Below, in pieces: positions 22,674 to 33,727 of a stretch of 64,000 bases of DNA (position 1 is the stretch's first letter; every line of letters begins with the position of its first letter). Source of the DNA: Flavobacteria bacterium RIFCSPLOWO2_12_FULL_35_11 (GTDB taxonomy: Bacteria; Bacteroidota; Bacteroidia; Flavobacteriales; Flavobacteriaceae). The notes below the pieces were generated by a model that worked only from the letters and a program-made list of their open reading frames with translations, was not told the origin of the DNA and searched no databases. The stretch is from assembly GCA_001800975.1 (NCBI GenBank), contig MGWK01000056.1, positions 1 through 64,000 on the forward strand, read 5' to 3'. Position numbers and translations under genes: made by a program.

Positions 22674-22706
22674 AAAAAACCTCCCTTTTTCAAGGAAGAT
22701 TTTTTA
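22674..22706. terminator. Putative terminator between convergent rnz and the subunit-like gene
   Basis: AAAAAACCTCCCTT-TTTC-AAGGAAGATTTTTT imperfect hairpin with flanking A/T tracts. Confidence 0.65.
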
Positions 22707-22726: not shown

Positions 22727-23314
22727 TTAAATATCTGTAAGTGTGTAAGTAATTGTTAATGGTGCAATTATATCAAATCTTAAAGCAGCGTAATCAGTTG
22801 ATTCACCAGTAGCATAATCAAGTTTGTAGGTTAACTTACGACCTTTATCTACTCCGGTTCCGGTGTAAGTGCTTCCAATTCCTGTAACAATACTTTGTGC
22901 AGTAGTTGTTAAAATAAGTTCAGTTGCTGCAGCCGTACCTTTTGTACCTGCACCATCTGCAGTAGCATCAGAAGCAAGCACTGATAATTTTAATCCTGCA
23001 GGAACAGTTCCAGTACCAGTAATTGCAACAGATACATTTCTTAACAATGCTGTACCTTTAACAATAGAAGAATAGTTCATCCAAATGGTTGAGTTAGTTG
23101 CTGCAGCTCCAAAAGTCATTGGATCACCAGCTTCTGTTGGTGCAGTACCTGCTAAAGTAATAGCTGTTGATGCCGCTTCAAGATCCAATAAGGCAATTTC
23201 TGGAATACTGATAGTCACTAAATGAGAAGCTGCTTTTCCGTCTGTTGCTTGTGCAAAAGAAGCGTTGGCAGATAAAACGATTACAGCGGCGAAAAATAAT
23301 TTTTTAAAGTTCAT
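22727..23314 (-). CDS. Secreted subunit-like (pilin-like) protein A of the usher-like locus
   Basis: Signal peptide ...SANASFAQ; shares IPEIALLDLE, WMNYSS, GTVPAGLKL, GIGSTYTGTGVDKG, LTITYTLTDI with paralogs at 23698 and 25903. Confidence 0.7.
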   Translation of the reverse strand: MNFKKLFFAAVIVLSANASFAQATDGKAASHLVTISIPEIALLDLEAASTAITLAGTAPTEAGDPMTFGAAATNSTIWMNYSSIVKGTALLRNVSVAITGTGTVPAGLKLSVLASDATADGAGTKGTAAATELILTTTAQSIVTGIGSTYTGTGVDKGRKLTYKLDYATGESTDYAALRFDIIAPLTITYTLTDI

Positions 23315-23376
23315 GAGGGTTGTTTTTTTAAATTGTTTGTTATTTATTTTTTTGTTGTTATTTTCTTTTGATGGTA

Positions 23377-23405
23377 CAAATATAGGTTGACATTAAAGCT
23401 TGCAA
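23377..23405 (-). promoter_or_regulatory. Bacteroidota-type promoter upstream of subunit A
   Basis: Minus strand TTG (23405-23403) - N18 - TATATTTG (23384-23377). Confidence 0.65.
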
Positions 23406-23420
23406 TGCAAAAAATAGGCA

Positions 23421-23448
23421 GGTAAACGTTAAGTGTCGGTGAACGGTA
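23421..23448 (-). promoter_or_regulatory. Putative operator: TACCGTTCACC / TAACGTTTACC direct repeat (17-bp period)
   Basis: Minus strand tACCGTTCAcCGACACTTaACGTTTAcc, ending 16 bp upstream of the predicted -33 box; 15-mer TGTCGGTGAACGGTA shared with the 32.14 kb site. Confidence 0.5.
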
Positions 23449-23697
23449 GGTTTCATTAGATGAATAAACTTAACGGCAGTTGAAAGCTGTGAAATGTGGG
23501 GAGAATATTTGCCCAAAAACTGAAGGATTATAGGCCAATTTGGCGTTTACTGCAGATTTAAAATGAAAGATTTCACCATGAGCCTAAACAATAGCTGATA
23601 GTGAAAGACCAACGTTAATTTGGTGGCATAAAAAAACACCATCCTAAAAAATGTCTTCGGGAATAGTGTCTTTTTCTAAATAGAAACCAAAAGTAAA

Positions 23698-24267
23698 TTA
23701 GTTGTCGGATAACGTATAGTTGATCACCAAGGTATTGCTTTGGTCGAAATCCAAATTAGCAAAAGCGTTTGGTTCATCACTAAGTTTTAAGGTATATTGC
23801 ACATTGTTGCCTTTATTGGCGCCTGCACCCGTATAAGCACTTCCTATATCGGTAATAATCGTAAGCGGATTAGCAGTAAGCTCTTGCATTGTGCTGATTG
23901 GTTTCCCCATTGTGCCTGCACCAGCGCTATTATCTTTCTCTACTTTAACATAAAGCTTCACGCCGGCAGGAATGGTGCCTTCAGAAATACGAATGCTAAT
24001 ATCTCTGCTTGGTTGTGTTTGTGAGCCAATAATGGAAGAATAATTGATCCAAACGCTGTTGTTTGTATCTTCAATGCTTAATGGTTTTCCTGCTTCAATA
24101 ACCGTAGTGTTTCCTAATGAAATGGCTGAATTAGAATAAACATTAATTAAGGCAACTTCCGGTATTGTTAAATTTATTTTGTGGCTGTCATGATTCTCTT
24201 GAGCGCTTAAATTGCCAATCACTAATAAAAATAAGAACAGGGCTATATTTTTGTAGGTTGTGGTCAT
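23698..24267 (-). CDS. Secreted subunit-like (pilin-like) protein B
   Basis: Signal peptide; IPEVALINVY, VWINYSSI, GTIPAGVKLYV, DIGSAYTGAGANKG, LVINYTLSDN. Confidence 0.7.
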   Translation of the reverse strand: MTTTYKNIALFLFLLVIGNLSAQENHDSHKINLTIPEVALINVYSNSAISLGNTTVIEAGKPLSIEDTNNSVWINYSSIIGSQTQPSRDISIRISEGTIPAGVKLYVKVEKDNSAGAGTMGKPISTMQELTANPLTIITDIGSAYTGAGANKGNNVQYTLKLSDEPNAFANLDFDQSNTLVINYTLSDN

Positions 24268-24350
24268 TTTTTTGGCTTAAGAGGTATTGCGTTTATAGGT
24301 TTTTATGTTTGTGTAACTAAAAAAGTTAATTGCTCTATTTAGATTTATTC

Positions 24351-24380
24351 TAAAGATACAAACAAAAAATGATTAAACAA
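24351..24380 (-). promoter_or_regulatory. Bacteroidota-type promoter upstream of subunit B
   Basis: Minus strand TTG (24380-24378) - N19 - TATCTTTA (24358-24351). Confidence 0.6.
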
Positions 24381-24400
24381 TGAAATAAATGATATATTTT

Positions 24401-24450
24401 ACCATTTATTGCAAATTAATTACCATTCATTATAATTAATATACCGTTTA
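24401..24450 (+). promoter_or_regulatory. Triple LytTR-like direct repeat ACCATTTA-N13-ACCATTCA-N13-ACCGTTTA
   Basis: Three 8-mers at 24401, 24422 and 24443, exact 21-bp period, 20 bp upstream of the predicted -33 box of subunit B. Confidence 0.65.
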
Positions 24451-24732
24451 TATTTTATTATATCATTTTTCAGGTGTTGAAAAAAGTAAAAAGCGCGTTA
24501 AACTGCTTCCTTTTACTTAAAGTTACGCGATTAATTTTGAAAAATTTGTGGGAGGTTGAAAAAATATGCCCGTTTTCAGAACTTTTTATTTTGATGAAGA
24601 ATATGGAATGAAAGAATTTTAAAAAGATATAATTATTGTCGTCCAGAAACTTTGGAACAATGGTGTGAGAAGCATTTTCTAAAAAATGCGATTTATAATG
24701 ACAAGATTCAACGTTATAATAAAATTGATTTT

Positions 24733-25371
24733 CTATTGAAGATGCGACAAAGCAATTTCTAAATCAACCAACAACAGTTTCATATTTTCCAATTGATTTT
24801 CAGTATCATTTAAAATATGAACATCAATTTCTTTGCACAAGAGTGCAGAAAGCGGCAAATCCAGCATCGAAAATTTGCTGCTCAATTGGTGCGCCCTGCT
24901 TTTTAATTCCGATAAATTTTTGTTTTCAATCAATGCAGGGATTTCCTCAAAATTTTGTTTGAATTCATCAACAATTAATGCTTTTAATTGTTCAAAAAAT
25001 TCTTCATCATCCATGGCGTATTCTTCAATGGCTACATAAGAAATAGGCGTGTTTTCCGCTAAAAAAGCAAACAATGTTGAATAACTTAAAGGTGATTTTG
25101 TGTTTGCATAAGAAGTTCCCGATAAATCCAACTCGGCATCGTTCACAACCAACACAGGTAGCTTAATTAAGTCTCCAAACGCCAGAATAGACTCATTTTT
25201 AATAAAAGATTGCGCAACCAGATGCGTATAAGTCCCCGCATTTAACGCCGCATCCAATTCCTTAAAATCAGCGATTATTTCATAGGGAATGCCTGTGTTT
25301 TGCTGAAGGCACAATTTAATAGCTTCTTGCTTTATGTCATTTTCTTCAATAAAAAGTATTTTTATGGGCAT
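24733..25371 (-). CDS. Degenerate receiver + C-terminal histidine phosphotransfer (HPt) domain protein
   Basis: N-terminal receiver-like fold (KILFIEENDIKQEAIKLCL) without a clear phosphoacceptor Asp; C-terminal LSELKSRAHQLSSKFSMLDLPLSALLCKEID resembles an HPt His motif. Confidence 0.65.
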   Translation of the reverse strand: MPIKILFIEENDIKQEAIKLCLQQNTGIPYEIIADFKELDAALNAGTYTHLVAQSFIKNESILAFGDLIKLPVLVVNDAELDLSGTSYANTKSPLSYSTLFAFLAENTPISYVAIEEYAMDDEEFFEQLKALIVDEFKQNFEEIPALIENKNLSELKSRAHQLSSKFSMLDLPLSALLCKEIDVHILNDTENQLENMKLLLVDLEIALSHLQ

Positions 25372-25432
25372 TGTTTCAAGTGTTTAATTGTTTTTGTCTT
25401 TTTAGCTATTTCTATTATCATTTTTAACCTCA

Positions 25433-25903
25433 TTATTGAAGCATTACGGTGAACATAATTGAAGTTGAATAACTTTGAACCGGCAATAAAATACTTATCC
25501 CTGTAATTTCATATTGTAATTGCACAAATGTAAGAAGGTCACTACAAGTAAAAAAGTTAGCATCATTGTTTGTAATTACTTGATAATTTAAGCCTCCATT
25601 GATGGAGTTATTCCCATTTGTGCCGTTTGATGTGCGTCTTATTTTAAGGGTCAAAGCTGCGATCCAAGCGATATCTTCTTTGTGAACAAAAACGACAAAA
25701 GTTTTATTTTTATTTTTAGGGTCTATTGTTAACAAAGTTTGATTTAGGTTACTGGTAAAAGTGGCTGGGTAATCACTCCCCGCTTCGCCTATATCTGATG
25801 CATCTATAGTTCTCGTCCAATTGCCTGTGACAGTCATGTCAAAACCTTGACCAAACAAACTGTTAGAAATAACCAAAAAGGCGATAAAGATTAAGTTTTT
25901 CAT
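25433..25903 (-). CDS. Secreted small protein, possible minor/tip subunit
   Basis: Signal peptide MKNLIFIAFLVISNSLFGQ; beta-rich; start codon overlaps the upstream stop codon (TAATG). Confidence 0.5.
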   Translation of the reverse strand: MKNLIFIAFLVISNSLFGQGFDMTVTGNWTRTIDASDIGEAGSDYPATFTSNLNQTLLTIDPKNKNKTFVVFVHKEDIAWIAALTLKIRRTSNGTNGNNSINGGLNYQVITNNDANFFTCSDLLTFVQLQYEITGISILLPVQSYSTSIMFTVMLQ

Positions 25904-26445
25904 TAAAATTCATTTAAAGTTAGAATAATAGACAATGTTGCTGACTGGTCGAAATCCAATAATTTATAATCGTAAATTTCCAAATAATAGGTAAGCTCGT
26001 AACCATTATTGATGCCATTTCCTGTATATGCGCCCTTTATATTGGATATAATTGTTTGTGGTGTGTCATTTAAGGTCACAACACCTGAAGGCGAACCTAA
26101 CACGCCTTGACCAATACCCATATAATTTGAAGTGCTCAGTTTTAAATAAATTCCCGGAGGCGCTACTTGACCAACATCCATTTGAATTGAAATGCTTCTG
26201 GAGTTACCCGCAATAACAGCCGATGAAAAATTAATCCACTTTTTGTTATTCGCCATTACAATTGCCGCTTTTTCGCCAGCCTCATTTGATGCGGCTAAAT
26301 TTAGTGTTACAGTTGAATTATTGGGCTCCAGATCTATCATCGCCACTTCCTGCAAATTAAAGATCGCAGTAACGCTTCCAAAGTCGTTCTGAGCGTAATT
26401 TGAAATTGCGCAGAAAACGCAAATGATGAAAATTAGTTGTTTCAT
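25903..26445 (-). CDS. Secreted subunit-like (pilin-like) protein C
   Basis: Signal peptide; LQEVAMIDLE, KWINFSSAV, VAPPGIYLKL, NIKGAYTGNGINNGYELTYYLE, LSIILTLNEF. Confidence 0.68.
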   Translation of the reverse strand: MKQLIFIICVFCAISNYAQNDFGSVTAIFNLQEVAMIDLEPNNSTVTLNLAASNEAGEKAAIVMANNKKWINFSSAVIAGNSRSISIQMDVGQVAPPGIYLKLSTSNYMGIGQGVLGSPSGVVTLNDTPQTIISNIKGAYTGNGINNGYELTYYLEIYDYKLLDFDQSATLSIILTLNEF

Positions 26446-26529
26446 CTGTTTAAATTTTATTTTTTAGCGGTAACAGATGCTGTTCGCCATTAATCATTCC
26501 TTTGTGTGTCAAAATTTGTCTTGCTCGTT

Positions 26530-29250
26530 TCATAACTTAAATATTTTATCGCTTTTTTTAACCTCTCTATTTTTATTGCTGGCTTTAAAAACAGCCTTCC
26601 CTTCTTCATTGGATACCACAGTGATTGTTTTTTGCGTTTCACTAAAAATGAAGTCGTTCAGTAAATTTCTGACAACCAACTCAACAGCCCAATCGCCAGG
26701 CGTAAGTTCTTTAAACCAAAACTTACCGTCTTTGTCGGTTTTCGTATAATAGGTTTTGTCCTCCTTGGTTATTTTTACGACCAAATTAGGCAATTTTTTG
26801 ATGAATTTTGAAGATTGCATCACCGTTGTTTCTTCAAAAATAATTTGTCCGAATAAAGCGCCTGTATTTCCCATTTCAAGTACCACTTCCGTTTCTTTAT
26901 TCGGGAAAATGTCTATATCAATAGGCTGTTGCATCACAATAATTTTATTTTTTGGCAAACTCGATTGCTTAACATACAAACGGTAGGTTTTGGGTTTTAA
27001 ATTATAAAAGTGAAATACGCCTTTTTCATTGGTGATGGCAATATGATCATCCAATAAAACCAGGATGCCTTCCAAATTTGCTTTTTCGGCTGAAGTTATC
27101 TTCCCGGTTAAAGAGCCCACGGTTTTATTTTTTGAAACAGGCACATTCATCACAAAACTATACGATGCCGTAATTAAAAGTTCCTTTTTTATGGGAAAAA
27201 CAGGCAAACTCGTTTGTGAAACAGCCACGCTCAACAAATGTTTTCTTTGATAGTTGTAATTTACTTGCGCCTGCAAATAATTTTGGGCTTCATCCAATTC
27301 GTCAAAATCGTAATTTTTTTTGTAGAAAACACTTACATTTAGGTACGATTTTAAATTGTATTGTAAATTTCCGCCGTAATAAAATGTTTTAACGATTTCA
27401 TTTTCTTCGGATTGCTTGTTGCTTTGCTGGTAATCACCATTTAAGCCAACAATTAAATCTCTAAAAATATTTCCAGAAATACTTAAGGAACTGAAAAACG
27501 TATTTTGGGGTTCTGTGCTATCCGCCAAGAAATTTGTGGTCTTCCCAACGCGATTTTGCCAAATTAAATTGTATTTGTTTGGAATTCGGCTATAAAATGA
27601 AAGCGTCGCCAATTTTTCTTCAAAATTGTAGGTCTGCAAACTTAACTGATCTTCCTTATTTCTGTAATAACCTCCTACCCTAACCTTATTGTTTCTGTTG
27701 ATATTGTAATTAAAATACGCTTGATACTTTGTTGTTATTGGCGATGAACTGTAATTAATAGTGTCTTTAACCGGATTTATGGCACGATACTCCACGCCTA
27801 TTTGCATATCAATTGTATTGTTGAACCGGTAATTTGCCAGCGACAACAATTGCTTGCTGTTTCTTATATAACCCTTATAATTTTTATCGGAATATTGCGC
27901 AGAATTGATAAAATCCCATTTTTTTAAATTTAAATAGGCTTCCAAAGAATAAGCAAGCCCGTTTGTTTTATAATTGCTTTCATAAGCAATTTCACCGTTG
28001 ATTTTGAATCGGTCAAGGGTGTAAAAGGAAGCGATGTTAAAAATTTTAGAATTAAATTCTTCGTTGTCTTCAAAAAGGGTTCTGTTGATAAATCCCATTT
28101 CTACATACGCTTTATCCGATAAATCCTGTGATATTTTACCGCCGTATGAATCGGATATTTGTTTGGTGAACCGCGGTTTTACGTAGAACAGTGTCGCCGT
28201 TGTTTTACCAAAATCATAGCTTAAAATTCCGCCCGTTCCATAACGGGATGTTTCGGTAATATTGGAAAGCGAAAAATTAACATGTCCTAAAACAGCTTCC
28301 ATTTTTTTATTTTTGTAAAGCAGGCTGTACCTTTCATAATCGCCAAACCTCACAATATCGCTTTGGCTCGGACCAGAATATTCAAAATTTAAATAATGTT
28401 CATTTCCCTTATCCAAGAAACCTTGTCCGCTCACCTTAAATTTAAAAACATTCAAGGTATCCAAACCTTTTAACGAGTTAAAAATAGTGGAAACGGTAAT
28501 TGGAAACCTATGGTACAAATCGGGTTTTTTGGTGTTGTTTGGGTAAAGTGTGATTGCCACGCGATTTGAAAAAAGCAAGTCTTTTGAAACCACATAGGCT
28601 TTTAAGTTGTTCAAAACCATGGTTTTGCTGCTTACATTTCCGGGAACTTGCTGATAAACGGCAACAACCATCGAAGAATCTGGTTTCAGCACGGCGTTTG
28701 CAGGCACTATCTTAAGCGCATTACTCGATTCAAAAGTTATTTTCTCTTCGCTGTTCCCATTATTCGTCACCAAATACTCACAGTAATATTCTTTTTCCAG
28801 CCGCAAATATTCAGGGGCATTTAAAACCTCAACAGCCAAATTGTATAATTTAGAAACGGTAAGCGCTATTTCCTGAGAAGCCATTGGTTCATTATCGCTT
28901 GAAATTTTTAGCAATGCGTTGTAATTTCCCGCTGCACAATGGTTCTTAACGTCAAATGTGAACAGCACTATTTTTTTATTGTTTGCGGCAACAATAATAT
29001 TTTTAGTATTTGTTGTCAAATAAAACTGGTCGGAAATTGCAAATTCGCAACTTAAATTAAGCGGATTGCCGGAGGTATTTGAAATTTCGAAAGCGATGGT
29101 GTAGTTTTTTCCGGGAACTAAATTTTCTGGGATATTTTTTGCTGAAATTTCAACCGCACTATTCTGCGCTTCAACTTTTGACACTGACATAAACATCAAT
29201 ATAAAAAGAAAAAAATAGTTTAATGTTGCTATTTCAGGAAAGTTTCTCAA
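26530..29250 (-). CDS. Usher-like outer-membrane beta-barrel protein with N-terminal Ig-like (NEW3/COG1470-like) and C-terminal carboxypeptidase-regulatory-like domains
   Basis: 906 aa, signal peptide; NTSGNPLNLSCEF / VTNNGNSEEKITFES domains; central strand-rich aromatic segment; C-terminal GKITSAEKANLEGILVLLDDHIAITNEKGVFHFYNLKPKTYRLYVKQSSLPKN and a second TKTDKDGKFWFKELTPGDWAVELV domain. Confidence 0.62.
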   Translation of the reverse strand: MRNFPEIATLNYFFLFILMFMSVSKVEAQNSAVEISAKNIPENLVPGKNYTIAFEISNTSGNPLNLSCEFAISDQFYLTTNTKNIIVAANNKKIVLFTFDVKNHCAAGNYNALLKISSDNEPMASQEIALTVSKLYNLAVEVLNAPEYLRLEKEYYCEYLVTNNGNSEEKITFESSNALKIVPANAVLKPDSSMVVAVYQQVPGNVSSKTMVLNNLKAYVVSKDLLFSNRVAITLYPNNTKKPDLYHRFPITVSTIFNSLKGLDTLNVFKFKVSGQGFLDKGNEHYLNFEYSGPSQSDIVRFGDYERYSLLYKNKKMEAVLGHVNFSLSNITETSRYGTGGILSYDFGKTTATLFYVKPRFTKQISDSYGGKISQDLSDKAYVEMGFINRTLFEDNEEFNSKIFNIASFYTLDRFKINGEIAYESNYKTNGLAYSLEAYLNLKKWDFINSAQYSDKNYKGYIRNSKQLLSLANYRFNNTIDMQIGVEYRAINPVKDTINYSSSPITTKYQAYFNYNINRNNKVRVGGYYRNKEDQLSLQTYNFEEKLATLSFYSRIPNKYNLIWQNRVGKTTNFLADSTEPQNTFFSSLSISGNIFRDLIVGLNGDYQQSNKQSEENEIVKTFYYGGNLQYNLKSYLNVSVFYKKNYDFDELDEAQNYLQAQVNYNYQRKHLLSVAVSQTSLPVFPIKKELLITASYSFVMNVPVSKNKTVGSLTGKITSAEKANLEGILVLLDDHIAITNEKGVFHFYNLKPKTYRLYVKQSSLPKNKIIVMQQPIDIDIFPNKETEVVLEMGNTGALFGQIIFEETTVMQSSKFIKKLPNLVVKITKEDKTYYTKTDKDGKFWFKELTPGDWAVELVVRNLLNDFIFSETQKTITVVSNEEGKAVFKASNKNREVKKSDKIFKL

Positions 29251-29301
29251 ATTAATACTGAAAAAAAACAGAAATTTTTAGGGTCATATGATACTTTAGG
29301 G

Positions 29302-30084
29302 CTATTTATTTTCAAATTCCAAATCGATGGAATAAATATTTTTTCCATAATCGGCAATCAATACCGCCGTGTAAGCGCCTTTTGGCAAGCCTGAAATATC
29401 AAGCGAAAATGATTTACAAGAATTTGGATACACTTTTTTAAATTTAACTTCCACTTTTTTTGCTTGTTCACCATTGGCATTAAACACTTCAAGCATTAAG
29501 GTTGGCTCCACATAAAAGTTCCCTAAATTTTTTAAATCAACATTTATGAGTTTGTTCCCGTCGGGTTCTTCAATTTTGATGTCGTAAAATTCAAGTTCAG
29601 AAAGTGTTCTTTCATTAATGTCGGCAATAATTTGAATTCCATATCTTACTTTTGATTCCAGTTTTACGCCAAATTCAAGTTCATCTTCTTTAATTGGTTT
29701 TTCAATTTCAACCATTAAAACACCCCAATACGAACCGTCAATTGCAACATCATTGGGCACATTGATGGTATAAATTAGTTCATATTCTTCGTTTGCCTTA
29801 AAAACGTGCTCATTTACATTTGTAGACAACCAATTTTTTATGGAATTCTTGTGACTGATGTCAGCCGTTAAAACAGTTTCATTGCCACATTCCTGAAACA
29901 AATCATTAAAATAGATAATAACACGTTGCTCCGTTGCATCGGTGTTTTTTAAACTAATAACGCCGGTGATTAATTGTCCGGAAGCCGATTGATGCACGTG
30001 TGTTAAGCCATTAAGTATGACAACACCGGCATTTGAGACCTGAAAACTCAAAAATAATAAAAGAAATAGTAGGGATTTTTTCAT
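29302..30084 (-). CDS. Periplasmic chaperone-like protein (PapD/DUF916-like beta-sandwich)
   Basis: Signal peptide; ...FKANEEYELIYTINVPNDVAIDGSYWGVLMVEIEK...SKVRYGIQIIADI resembles periplasmic chaperone / WxL-locus DUF916 domains. Confidence 0.55.
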   Translation of the reverse strand: MKKSLLFLLLFLSFQVSNAGVVILNGLTHVHQSASGQLITGVISLKNTDATEQRVIIYFNDLFQECGNETVLTADISHKNSIKNWLSTNVNEHVFKANEEYELIYTINVPNDVAIDGSYWGVLMVEIEKPIKEDELEFGVKLESKVRYGIQIIADINERTLSELEFYDIKIEEPDGNKLINVDLKNLGNFYVEPTLMLEVFNANGEQAKKVEVKFKKVYPNSCKSFSLDISGLPKGAYTAVLIADYGKNIYSIDLEFENK

Positions 30085-30135
30085 TTTTCGAAATTTATTT
30101 TGTTAATAAAATTGGGGTTTATGATCGATTTTAGT

Positions 30136-30852
30136 TTACAGTAAATTTAGGCGTTTCATTAATTCGGGTTTGCTCGACCGGCTTACCGGAACTACAGTTT
30201 TCCCTATCAACACACTGCTGTCTTCTATATCAACAATCTTTTTAATGTTGATGATAAATGACCTGTGTACTTTTAAAAACAGCTCATCGGGCAATTTATC
30301 TTCTATTTTTTTTAGGGTTGAATGAACCGTGTAATTTTCCTTATCAGTTTTTATCAAAATATAATCTCCTTTTGCCTCAATTAAATTGATGCCATCAAAA
30401 CTAATTTTAACCAGACGTTTATAAATGTTTACATACAATTCACTTTTGGATTCATTTACGGCTGTGGTCACCGGCAAATCTGGCAGCTCTTTTTTGGAAT
30501 TGGCAAACAACTTGGCCTTTTCAACCGCTTTGTCAAATCGCGCTTGGGCGATTGGTTTCTCTAAATAATCTACCACAGAATTGTATTCAAATGCTTCTAA
30601 AGCAAAATTTGCGTTAGAGGTAATTAAAATTACCTTGGGCGCATCTTTTAACGTTTGCAATAAATCAAAACCCGTGAAGGCTGGCATGTTTATATCCAAA
30701 AAGATGAGATCAACTGTATGCTGATTTAAATATTTAAGCGCCTCAATTGGGTTGTTGAAACTGGCGACCAGATTTAGGTTTTTATTGTTGGAAATTAACT
30801 TTTCAATAATGACTCTTGCAATTTCTTCATCATCAATAACAATGCATTTCAT
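30136..30852 (-). CDS. LytTR family response regulator
   Basis: Receiver IDDEEIARVIIEKLI...DLIFLDINMPAFTGFDLL; LytTR output YTVHSTLKKIEDKLPDELFLKVHRSFIINIKKI. Confidence 0.93.
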   Translation of the reverse strand: MKCIVIDDEEIARVIIEKLISNNKNLNLVASFNNPIEALKYLNQHTVDLIFLDINMPAFTGFDLLQTLKDAPKVILITSNANFALEAFEYNSVVDYLEKPIAQARFDKAVEKAKLFANSKKELPDLPVTTAVNESKSELYVNIYKRLVKISFDGINLIEAKGDYILIKTDKENYTVHSTLKKIEDKLPDELFLKVHRSFIINIKKIVDIEDSSVLIGKTVVPVSRSSKPELMKRLNLL

Positions 30853-30937
30853 AAGGTAATTTTTTTAGGAAATTTTCAATGCCGAAGATACCCTTTTTTT
30901 GCTTCATTTTATGAACAATACCAGCACATTATTGATT

Positions 30938-31639
30938 TTATTTTTTAGGAATTGTGAAATAAAATGTGGTACCCTTTAAAACTTCACTCTCCAGCCAAAT
31001 TTCACCACCAAATAGGTCTAAAACCCTTTTCACAATGGAAAGTCCCATGCCGGTCGATTTTTCTTGATAGCCTAATGTGGTAAAAGTGTTAAATATTTTT
31101 TGGTGGTATTCCTTCGGAATTCCCTGCCCATTGTCTTTTATGGAAAAAGTATAAAAATCTTCCGCTTCCTCAACCCCAACTTCAACCAAGCCTTTTTCTT
31201 TATCATTGAAGTTAACGGCATTGCTGATTAAATTTTGAAAAACTTGCTGTAATTTTCTTGCATCAGCCTTTAAAATAGGCAAATTACCTTTTACGACTAC
31301 GTTAATATTTTTGGGAATGTTAATGCTGCCAATTATTTTATTCAGCATTTCATTTAAATCAATGGTATTTGTTTTTAGTCCAGTCGCTCCAATTTCCGAG
31401 TAATTGATAATGTCTTCCAAAAACTGATCCATCTTTTCAATTTTCGCCTCCATAAGGTTCAAATTGCCAACACTTTCTTCTCCAATTTTTTCGCTGCAAT
31501 CCTCTTTCACCCAGGCTAACAAGGCCGAAAGGTTTCTTAAAGATGATTTTAAATCGTGCGAAACCAAATGTGCATAGTCATTCAACTGCTCATTTTGGTG
31601 TTTTAATTTTTGAAGTAATTGTTCTTTTTGATGCATCAT
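30938..31639 (-). CDS. Sensor histidine kinase lacking a recognisable sensor domain
   Basis: H-box YAHLVSHDLKSSLRNL; N-box FQNLISNAVNFN; DNGQGIP; GMGLSIVKRVLDLFGGEIWLES. Confidence 0.92.
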   Translation of the reverse strand: MMHQKEQLLQKLKHQNEQLNDYAHLVSHDLKSSLRNLSALLAWVKEDCSEKIGEESVGNLNLMEAKIEKMDQFLEDIINYSEIGATGLKTNTIDLNEMLNKIIGSINIPKNINVVVKGNLPILKADARKLQQVFQNLISNAVNFNDKEKGLVEVGVEEAEDFYTFSIKDNGQGIPKEYHQKIFNTFTTLGYQEKSTGMGLSIVKRVLDLFGGEIWLESEVLKGTTFYFTIPKK

Positions 31640-31647
31640 GTTAAGCT

Positions 31648-32061
31648 TTATGCTTGCACAAATTCATTATAACACCAGTAATCCAGCACCGTTTTAATGG
31701 ATTCGGAATAATCGCTGTATTTTAAAGGTTTTACCAAATAACCCGCAATGCCAAGTTGGTGACAATCTGATACATCTTTATGGTCATTTGACGAGGTTAA
31801 TATAACGGTTGGAATAAATTTTAAATGTTCATTTTTTCTGATGATGCTTAAAAATTCAAGGCCATTTATTTTAGGCATATTTAAGTCGAGCAAAATAAGA
31901 TCGGGCAATGATTCATTTTTATATAAAATATCCAACGCTTCTTCCCCGTTTTTAGCTTCAACAATGTTATGAGGACACTCCAATTTTGAAATTGTTCTGT
32001 TAAATTTCATAATTTCTATCATATCATCTTCAACCAGCAATATGTTTAAGCTTTTTCTCAT
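31648..32061 (-). CDS. Single-domain response regulator (Rcp1-like)
   Basis: LLVEDDMIEIMKFNRTI, DLILLDLNMPKINGLEFL, TSSNDHKDV, GYLVKPL. Confidence 0.93.
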   Translation of the reverse strand: MRKSLNILLVEDDMIEIMKFNRTISKLECPHNIVEAKNGEEALDILYKNESLPDLILLDLNMPKINGLEFLSIIRKNEHLKFIPTVILTSSNDHKDVSDCHQLGIAGYLVKPLKYSDYSESIKTVLDYWCYNEFVQA

Positions 32062-32810: not shown

Positions 32811-33191
32811 TTAAGCAGTTTCTTTTTCCTTACTTCTGGCTTTGGCAATCTTATCGATCATTTCAGGCATTTTTTCAAATACAGAGGCAAGTCCGCTTGA
32901 TTTTCCTGCGGCAAGAAAAGAAATGTCACTTCCCCTGCTTACCAAAAAACCAATTGGTTCAATTCCCACGCCTGCGCCTGCCCCGCCACCTTGAGATGCT
33001 CCTTCTCCTTTAACATCTTTTTTTTGGGTATCTGCTGCAACGCCAGAACCAAATCCCATGCCAACTTTAATCACCGGCACACACTTGAATTCTCCCAATT
33101 CAAACTGTTTTCCAATCACAGTTTCCGTGTTGGCTTCCGACTTGATAAAGTCGGTAATTTTGCCCAACAATTCTTCCATACGTAATTCCAT
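32811..33191 (-). CDS. GerW (YtfJ) family protein
   Basis: GVGIEPIGFLVSRGSDISFL and VIGKQFELGEFKCVPVIKVGMGFGSG. Confidence 0.88.
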   Translation of the reverse strand: MELRMEELLGKITDFIKSEANTETVIGKQFELGEFKCVPVIKVGMGFGSGVAADTQKKDVKGEGASQGGGAGAGVGIEPIGFLVSRGSDISFLAAGKSSGLASVFEKMPEMIDKIAKARSKEKETA

Positions 33192-33202
33192 AATATTGTT
33201 TT

Positions 33203-33727
33203 TTAAAGGTTCATAAATGATTTAATTAAATATATTGGCCTGCTGTAAATATGCAGTTCCACTCGGTTTCTTCCTTCAAAATTGACACTAAAACCGCCCA
33301 CGTGATAATTCAACATTGCAAATAGCGGATACAATTTTGCGTTCAAAATGCAATCACCCGTATCTATATCAAAAAGAAATCTTTTCACCTTAAACGATTT
33401 TAGCAACCGCAAACCTTTTTCAATGTCAATTCCCTTGCCAATTTTCTTTTTATTTACTGTACTTTTTAAGGTCTTTTTCTTATTTCCTAATACAATATTT
33501 CTTAGCGGATAAAAATAAAAACTTAAAAAAAACAGCTTCAGTCTTATTCTGATCAATTCATCTTCGTGACTTTCTATACTTGCCTTTACCAAACCTTTTA
33601 CTTGCAGGTAATATTGATTTGTTTTTGTGTCAATAAACAGCACAATTGGCATCATCGACAAATAAAATAGCAACAATAAAAACAAGATTGAAGAGAAGGT
33701 TATAAGCATTGCTTTGTTTTTCGGCAA
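33203..33727 (-). CDS. DUF2953-like membrane protein adjacent to gerW
   Basis: N-terminal TM helix; C-terminal FLFDIDTGDCILNAKLYPLFAMLNYHVGGFSVNFEGRN pattern; position next to gerW as in Firmicutes ytfI-ytfJ. Confidence 0.55.
   Translation of the reverse strand: MPKNKAMLITFSSILFLLLLFYLSMMPIVLFIDTKTNQYYLQVKGLVKASIESHEDELIRIRLKLFFLSFYFYPLRNIVLGNKKKTLKSTVNKKKIGKGIDIEKGLRLLKSFKVKRFLFDIDTGDCILNAKLYPLFAMLNYHVGGFSVNFEGRNRVELHIYSRPIYLIKSFMNL

Follow-up and report, generated by a model that had tools for sequence, protein, structure and literature searches.

Does a member of the Bacteroidota, a phylum known for type V pili and the type IX secretion system (T9SS), carry a chaperone-usher-like machine for assembling surface fibres? 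The question is raised by a block of minus-strand genes at 22727-32061 of the window, a 64,000-nucleotide (nt) stretch of DNA that covers positions 1 to 64,000 of contig MGWK01000056.1 from Flavobacteria bacterium RIFCSPLOWO2_12_FULL_35_11 (assembly GCA_001800975.1). The first-pass annotation had read this block as a Bacteroidota usher-type fibre or surface assembly system distinct from type V pili, a proposal supported by a predicted barrel, matches to FimD folds and a DUF916/DUF3324 chaperone. The locus is probably a chaperone-usher-like surface-fibre assembly system using a chaperone of the WxLIP/DUF916 class and a plug-less usher-like barrel. All ten open reading frames (ORFs) are present at the coordinates and on the strand originally given. 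In order of transcription they are:

31648..32061, minus strand: receiver-only response regulator (PF00072)
30938..31639, minus strand: soluble histidine kinase with HisKA and HATPase domains (ORF list and Pfam)
30136..30852, minus strand: LytTR DNA-binding response regulator with a receiver (PF00072, PF04397)
29302..30084, minus strand: chaperone with two immunoglobulin-like (Ig) domains, predicted periplasmic, WxLIP (DUF916-DUF3324) superfamily (PDB, Pfam and profile matches)
26530..29250, minus strand: usher-like outer-membrane protein (OMP), 906 aa (AlphaFold2 and Foldseek; C-terminal Pfam matches PF13620/PF17802)
25903..26445, minus strand: B, minor subunit, 180 aa, immediately 3′ of the OMP gene (motifs and gene order)
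25433..25903, minus strand: small last subunit (TIP), 156 aa, candidate tip or terminal subunit (profile relation to A and B)
24733..25371, minus strand: HPt-domain phosphotransfer protein (PF01627, sub-threshold)
23698..24267, minus strand: A2, second A-type subunit, 189 aa (ORF and motifs)
22727..23314, minus strand: A1, probable major fibre subunit, 195 aa, with a signal peptide (AlphaFold2, 84-sequence alignment and codon adaptation)

The eight genes from the receiver-only regulator to the HPt protein are separated by intergenic gaps of -1 to 85 nt and are operon-like; A2 and A1 are set apart by gaps of 465 and 383 nt, each with a promoter-like sequence. The core of the locus, carried here by a Lutibacter-like genome, is a five-gene cassette that comprises a major subunit, a two-Ig chaperone, an OMP of about 906 aa, a minor subunit and a small last subunit. 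Homologues of the OMP occur in 22 of 100 relatives, and a chaperone profile then gave 80 named loci. The exact string OMP-B-TIP lies directly 3′ of the chaperone gene in 70 of the 79 homologues from these loci, and loci of Flavobacteriia, Cytophagia and Saprospiria share the arrangement of subunit A, chaperone, OMP, B and small last subunit; Lutibacter-clade loci have their A genes 3′ of the HPt gene. Most of the exceptions lie at contig ends or have incomplete genes (L058, L086, L127), carry one more subunit (L071, L075) or have B fused with TIP (L133); for three Dyadobacter loci no last small gene was recognised. The hosts comprise Lutibacter, Chryseobacterium, Leeuwenhoekiella, Pseudozobellia, Mariniflexile, Dyadobacter, Flectobacillus, Emticicia, Arcicella, Telluribacter, Saprospiraceae and Mariniphaga. 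Recurrence of the chaperone-OMP-subunit-small subunit string is far beyond chance. The gene order of the cassette matches fimA-C-D-F-H of E. coli K-12 (subunit, chaperone, usher, minor subunits).

The chaperone at 29302, in which an Ig/PapD-DUF916-like pattern had been seen, proves to be a two-Ig homologue of DUF916/DUF3324 (WxLIP). Pfam gives a weak WxLIP similarity for the protein itself and, in its relatives, PF06030 at 2.7e-6 and PF11797 at 7e-9. The family profile matches EfmWxLIP1 of E. faecium in the PDB (9i1y/9i25, E=1e-8) over nearly the full length, and it aligns over 225 columns (E=9.3e-9) with a Gram-positive WxLIP profile made from seven sequences in plasmid loci of lactic acid bacteria. 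A third family, the chaperones of loci termed here X-type, is related to the window chaperone family (E=2.8e-16, 239 columns), to the Gram-positive WxLIP profile (E=1.6e-6) and to nine fimbrial (FimC-type) chaperones of E. coli K-12 (E=6.7e-5). Five of 25 X-type chaperones match PapD_N weakly, and a PDB sequence search with the X-type chaperone profile gave no PapD match. Profile pairs without relation scored 0.04-0.2, and a spurious match of unrelated profiles through the signal peptide alone reached 0.004, so that values around 1e-3 are noise. Judged by sequence profiles, the window chaperone falls between WxLIP and the PapD-type chaperones, to which its link is transitive and moderately strong. 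In its putative G1-type strand, positions 140, 142, 146, 148, 150 and 152 are 100% hydrophobic; Tyr148 is present in 79/79 family members and Arg147 in 77/79. In archaic chaperone-usher (CU) chaperones a conserved Tyr of the G1 strand is the donor residue and the subunit carboxylate is anchored (PMC4654587). The strand bearing Tyr148 and Arg147 may correspond to this donor G1 strand. WxLIP is likewise predicted to lend a hairpin strand that completes its WxL partner (PMC10599100).

In the other-Bacteroidota loci of the X-type, the chaperone gene is always directly followed by the gene for a plug-bearing usher (30 of 30 loci), and DUF4402 small subunits were found in the two X-type loci scanned. 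The X-type OMPs align with seven K-12 (FimD-type) ushers over barrel and plug (E=1.2e-6), and a PDB sequence search with the X-type usher profile gave no FimD match. These loci are seemingly an unrecognised chaperone-usher group. With a threshold of E<=1e-10, the plug-bearing family (L186-L215, L176, L178) is found in 64 of 297 Bacteroidota genomes; its members score below the cut-off of Pfam Usher.

The small secreted proteins are the candidate substrates. The shared motifs reported for three of them (IPE[IV]AL, W[IM]N[YF]SS, YTGxGxxxG and a C-terminal strand) are real in 22727, 23698 and 25903. The fourth, 25433, is a more distant relative of the A and B subunits (profile-profile E=1.3e-6); by sequence, A, B and the last small subunit are assigned to one superfamily. 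In the AlphaFold2 model of A1, with a predicted local distance difference test score (pLDDT) of 90.8, seven strands follow an unstructured post-signal N-terminal segment, and a C-terminal edge strand ends at the chain end. In the alignment of 84 subunit sequences, positions 33, 35, 37 and 186, 188, 190, 192 are 99-100% hydrophobic with mostly polar residues between them, and the chain ends 3-5 residues past T191 in 84/84. By analogy with donor-strand pilins, such a pattern would be expected of a strand that is donated and of a C-terminal strand anchored by the chaperone. The best pilus-related fold match of the subunit is the CupB6 tip adhesin (E=0.14, prob 0.90), with a template-modelling (TM) score of 0.42. 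Pfam assigns no family to the small proteins. A comparison of the subunits with K-12 pilins aligned just 23 columns (E=0.0011) and was not used. A natural in-frame fusion of B and the last small subunit (L133:12526-13572, 348 aa) has no internal signal peptide, which suggests that the two are adjacent in the assembled structure. In another locus (L174:2160-4961), four near-identical genes for 181-aa secreted subunits stand in tandem 5′ of the genome's second WxLIP/OMP pair.

Codon usage sets A1 apart from its neighbours. Measured against the ribosomal-protein genes of the same genome, its codon adaptation of 0.776 is the top value among 53 window ORFs (mean 0.54, standard deviation 0.07) and lies above every ribosomal-protein gene (0.61-0.75), the other cassette genes being average. 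The A1 orthologue is also the top cassette gene by this measure in 7/7 loci of the Lutibacter clade. Such a bias is compatible with a rod subunit produced in great excess.

A chaperone whose nearest solved relative is WxLIP, the proposed lasting partner of WxL in Gram-positives (PMC10599100), could instead belong to a Gram-negative WxL-like coat. The WxLIP homologue would then be a lasting structural partner, without exchange or polymer, and the barrel would just secrete or anchor the complex. This explanation is unlikely. The chaperone lacks the C-terminal transmembrane helix of WxLIP, its chain stopping at residue 260 (...YSIDLEFENK, direct reading), and the relatives closest to it in Bacteroidota are paired with plug-bearing ushers. 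A large multidomain WxL protein is absent, and the small proteins, for which WxL or DUF4402 had been considered at first, are neither: the WxL assignment (PF13731) is ruled out by Pfam (0/21 genomes) and by profile comparison (E=0.22), despite the resemblance of YTLTDI to TWTLxxxP. Furthermore, the major subunit is hugely codon-biased and the chaperone average, which makes a 1:1 stoichiometry unlikely.

The barrel that the first-pass reading of the 906-aa outer-membrane protein requires is seen in an AlphaFold2 model made with 68 sequences (pLDDT 86.9, predicted TM-score 0.60): two N-terminal Ig domains, a barrel of about 26 predicted strands (246-707) and two C-terminal CarboxypepD-like beta domains. 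In a Foldseek search of the PDB the best nine folds are all FimD (E=1.7e-15 to 6.2e-12, about 800 columns) and PapC comes next. The predicted architecture and the fold ranking support an usher-like protein; common descent is not proven thereby. By sequence, just the two C-terminal domains align with the X-type ushers (E=1.4e-5), and the Y-type OMPs (L174, L175, L180), which have their own WxLIP-like chaperone, are homologous over the full length (E=1.1e-35). A whole-profile search across the phylum gave 200 matches, most of them short and confined to barrel stretches or C-terminal CarboxypepD-like parts in other proteins. No match was obtained in a plasmid search with the OMP or in a viral fold library. 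Variants of 1025-1330 aa occur in L018, L024, L029, L084 and L113; in L018, L024 and L029 the OMP is extended at its N-terminus by a lipoprotein-like Cys segment, and the B subunits there have a longer N-terminal segment.

A large barrel with carboxypeptidase-like domains could also export a few small beta-sandwich proteins to the cell surface or into the medium, for secretion or adhesion without any fibre, the chaperone merely preventing misfolding. The subunits are indeed small and simple, and some TonB-type barrels reach FimD-like TM-scores. However, at least two A-type paralogues together with B and the last subunit, with their alternating terminal strands, point to polymerisation, as do the fim-like gene order and a chaperone superfamily common to pilus chaperones, and fibre-less export is quite improbable. 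Type V (FimA/Mfa) pili or a T9SS-dependent surface layer, both known in Bacteroidota, can be dismissed as very improbable: as the first-pass annotation had stated, the subunits have no lipobox cysteine (direct reading) and no detectable T9SS C-terminal domain, they match no FimA/Mfa family, and those systems have no dedicated pair of chaperone and barrel.

Several results weigh against an usher-type fibre. The TM-scores between the OMP and FimD are low (0.27-0.40) with a large root-mean-square deviation, and BtuB/TonB-type barrels match at 0.35-0.39, though with far weaker E-values (around 1e-7). The OMP model has no plug-size insertion between barrel strands, Pfam Usher (PF00577) has no match in the window OMP, and the profile of its barrel against the K-12 ushers (E=0.056) amounts to no sequence similarity. 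Compared directly with the K-12 chaperones, the window chaperone scores E=0.045, and the two are linked via the intermediate family alone. Foldseek of the subunit model gave no significant PDB match, and a codon bias of the A genes based on the effective number of codons shows no general trend outside the Lutibacter clade. The evidence consists of sequences and single-protein models. Pfam Usher stayed below cut-off in all of 198 Bacteroidota genomes, and the E. coli positive control was detected. The claim that the 906-aa protein is an usher thus stands for the barrel and the FimD fold matches, but not for membership of the Pfam family or a separate plug domain. Since PF00577 and a plug were both looked for and neither was found, the case for a system that works like an usher fibre is stronger than the case for formal membership.

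From the genes observed and their order, the relations of their families, the predicted folds, the patterns in the strands and the codon bias we infer how a chaperone-usher-like fibre could be assembled by donor-strand exchange. A1, A2, B and the last small subunit would cross into the periplasm by Sec, each one beta-strand short. Chaperone 29302 would lend its G1-type strand (GVKLESKVRYGIQI), gripping the C-terminal edge strand of the subunit, and the complex would bind the periplasmic Ig and C-terminal domains of OMP 26530. The next subunit would displace the chaperone with its alternating N-terminal strand, and the growing chain would be extruded through the barrel of about 26 strands, with the last small subunit at its head, B behind it and A1 following in very many copies. 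A1 and A2 would be expressed under separate control from the assembly genes; the probable controller is the LytTR regulator, which would receive its input from the kinase, receiver and HPt proteins.

The regulatory genes themselves are largely as annotated. Pfam confirms a receiver in the receiver-only regulator, HATPase/HisKA in the histidine kinase and receiver plus LytTR in the LytTR regulator; no sensor domain or transmembrane segment is seen in the kinase at 30938. Of the receiver/HPt protein described at 24733, the HPt half is found, below threshold (PF01627, E=3e-4), but a receiver half is undetected. HPt orthologues stand at the equivalent position in 12 other loci. The locus does have phosphorelay genes of its own, but the receiver-only regulator, kinase and HPt genes are linked to the cassette mainly in the Lutibacter clade and its close kin; linkage of a LytTR gene extends to more genera. 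The phosphorelay therefore looks like a lineage-specific addition. LytTR control of the cassette may be general.

The regions around A1 and A2 contain the following features:

23377..23405, minus strand: promoter-like sequence of A1, Bacteroidota type, TTG-N18-TATATTTG, 63-91 nt 5′ of the ATG
23421..23448, minus strand: conserved footprint 5′ of A1, TACCGTTCACCGACACTTAACGTTTACC, candidate LytTR/AlgR-type site (phylogenetic footprint, 7 sequences)
24399..24451, minus strand: 21-bp direct repeats 5′ of A2 (TTACCATTTAT on the plus strand), candidate regulator sites (Tandem Repeats Finder)
22680..22698, minus strand: terminator-like hairpin directly 3′ of A1 (consensus scan)

The region 5′ of A2, like that of A1, has footprints conserved in seven sequences. 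The -7 part of the A1 promoter-like sequence is kept in 7 loci and the spacing of the A2 repeats across the 7-locus alignment; the strict Bacteroidota promoter motif is not enriched over chance in the window. The LytTR regulator may bind the candidate sites upstream of A1 and A2. Beside the locus, at 32811-33727, a 126-aa protein that may resemble the GerW/YtfJ sporulation family adjoins a 174-aa protein, which would be odd in a non-sporulating lineage. A record labelled as a Klebsiella pneumoniae plasmid (CP069367.1) contains a WxLIP that shares 72% identity with its enterococcal counterpart and is probably mislabelled or contaminated.

An unstudied fibre is predicted for the hosts of the cassette, among them Lutibacter, Chryseobacterium, Dyadobacter, Flectobacillus, Emticicia and Leeuwenhoekiella. 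A literature search limited to open-licence papers, and hence weak evidence of absence, turned up no account of a system of this kind in Bacteroidota. The kinship of its chaperone with a Gram-positive cell-wall adhesion protein links two systems held to be unrelated, and it offers a possible explanation of Gram-positive WxLIP/WxL as a chaperone/pilin-like pair, the strand of one completing the other. The chances are about even that the cassette is a separate chaperone-usher class with a plug-less usher family and that its chaperone shows WxLIP (DUF916) and PapD-type chaperones to share one ancestor. If so, surface systems of single- and double-membrane bacteria would have in common that a two-Ig chaperone provides strand complementation.

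Among known systems, type V (FimA/Mfa1) pili are likewise Bacteroidota fibres, but their subunits are lipoproteins processed on the surface, with no chaperone or usher. The TasA/TapA fibres of Bacillus share the logic of a donor-strand polymer, and the TasA fibre 8aur is a weak fold match of the subunit (E=0.22); they have no usher and no sequence relation to the locus. In the WxL/WxLIP clusters of Firmicutes, small secreted beta proteins are encoded beside a WxLIP of which the window chaperone is a full-length homologue. In contrast to these, the window locus lacks the transmembrane helix of the chaperone, the WxL domain and the large WxL protein, and it is that of a diderm with an outer-membrane barrel. 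The X-type loci (plug-bearing usher with DUF4402; for example L176, L178, L188) share with it a homologous chaperone, several small subunits and two C-terminal OMP domains that stand in the same order, whereas their OMP has a different N-terminal domain, a plug and often C-terminal SPOR or TPR domains, and the subunits are DUF4402 in the loci checked. CU pili have been described from Proteobacteria, Cyanobacteria and Deinococcus-Thermus, and Bacteroidota is not among the phyla listed (PMC4654587, PMC10104325). Unlike those pili, the window locus has an OMP with two Ig domains in place of the usher N-terminal domain, about 26 predicted strands against about 24 in the usher barrel, no plug and no relation to PF00577 detectable by sequence, and a chaperone of the DUF916/WxLIP class. 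Like the type 1 and archaic Csu/CupE pili, it has the order major subunit, chaperone, usher or usher-like protein, minor subunit, last subunit, a two-Ig chaperone with a putative alternating G1 strand, a predicted barrel between periplasmic beta domains, and small subunits with a putative N-terminal strand and a predicted C-terminal edge strand.

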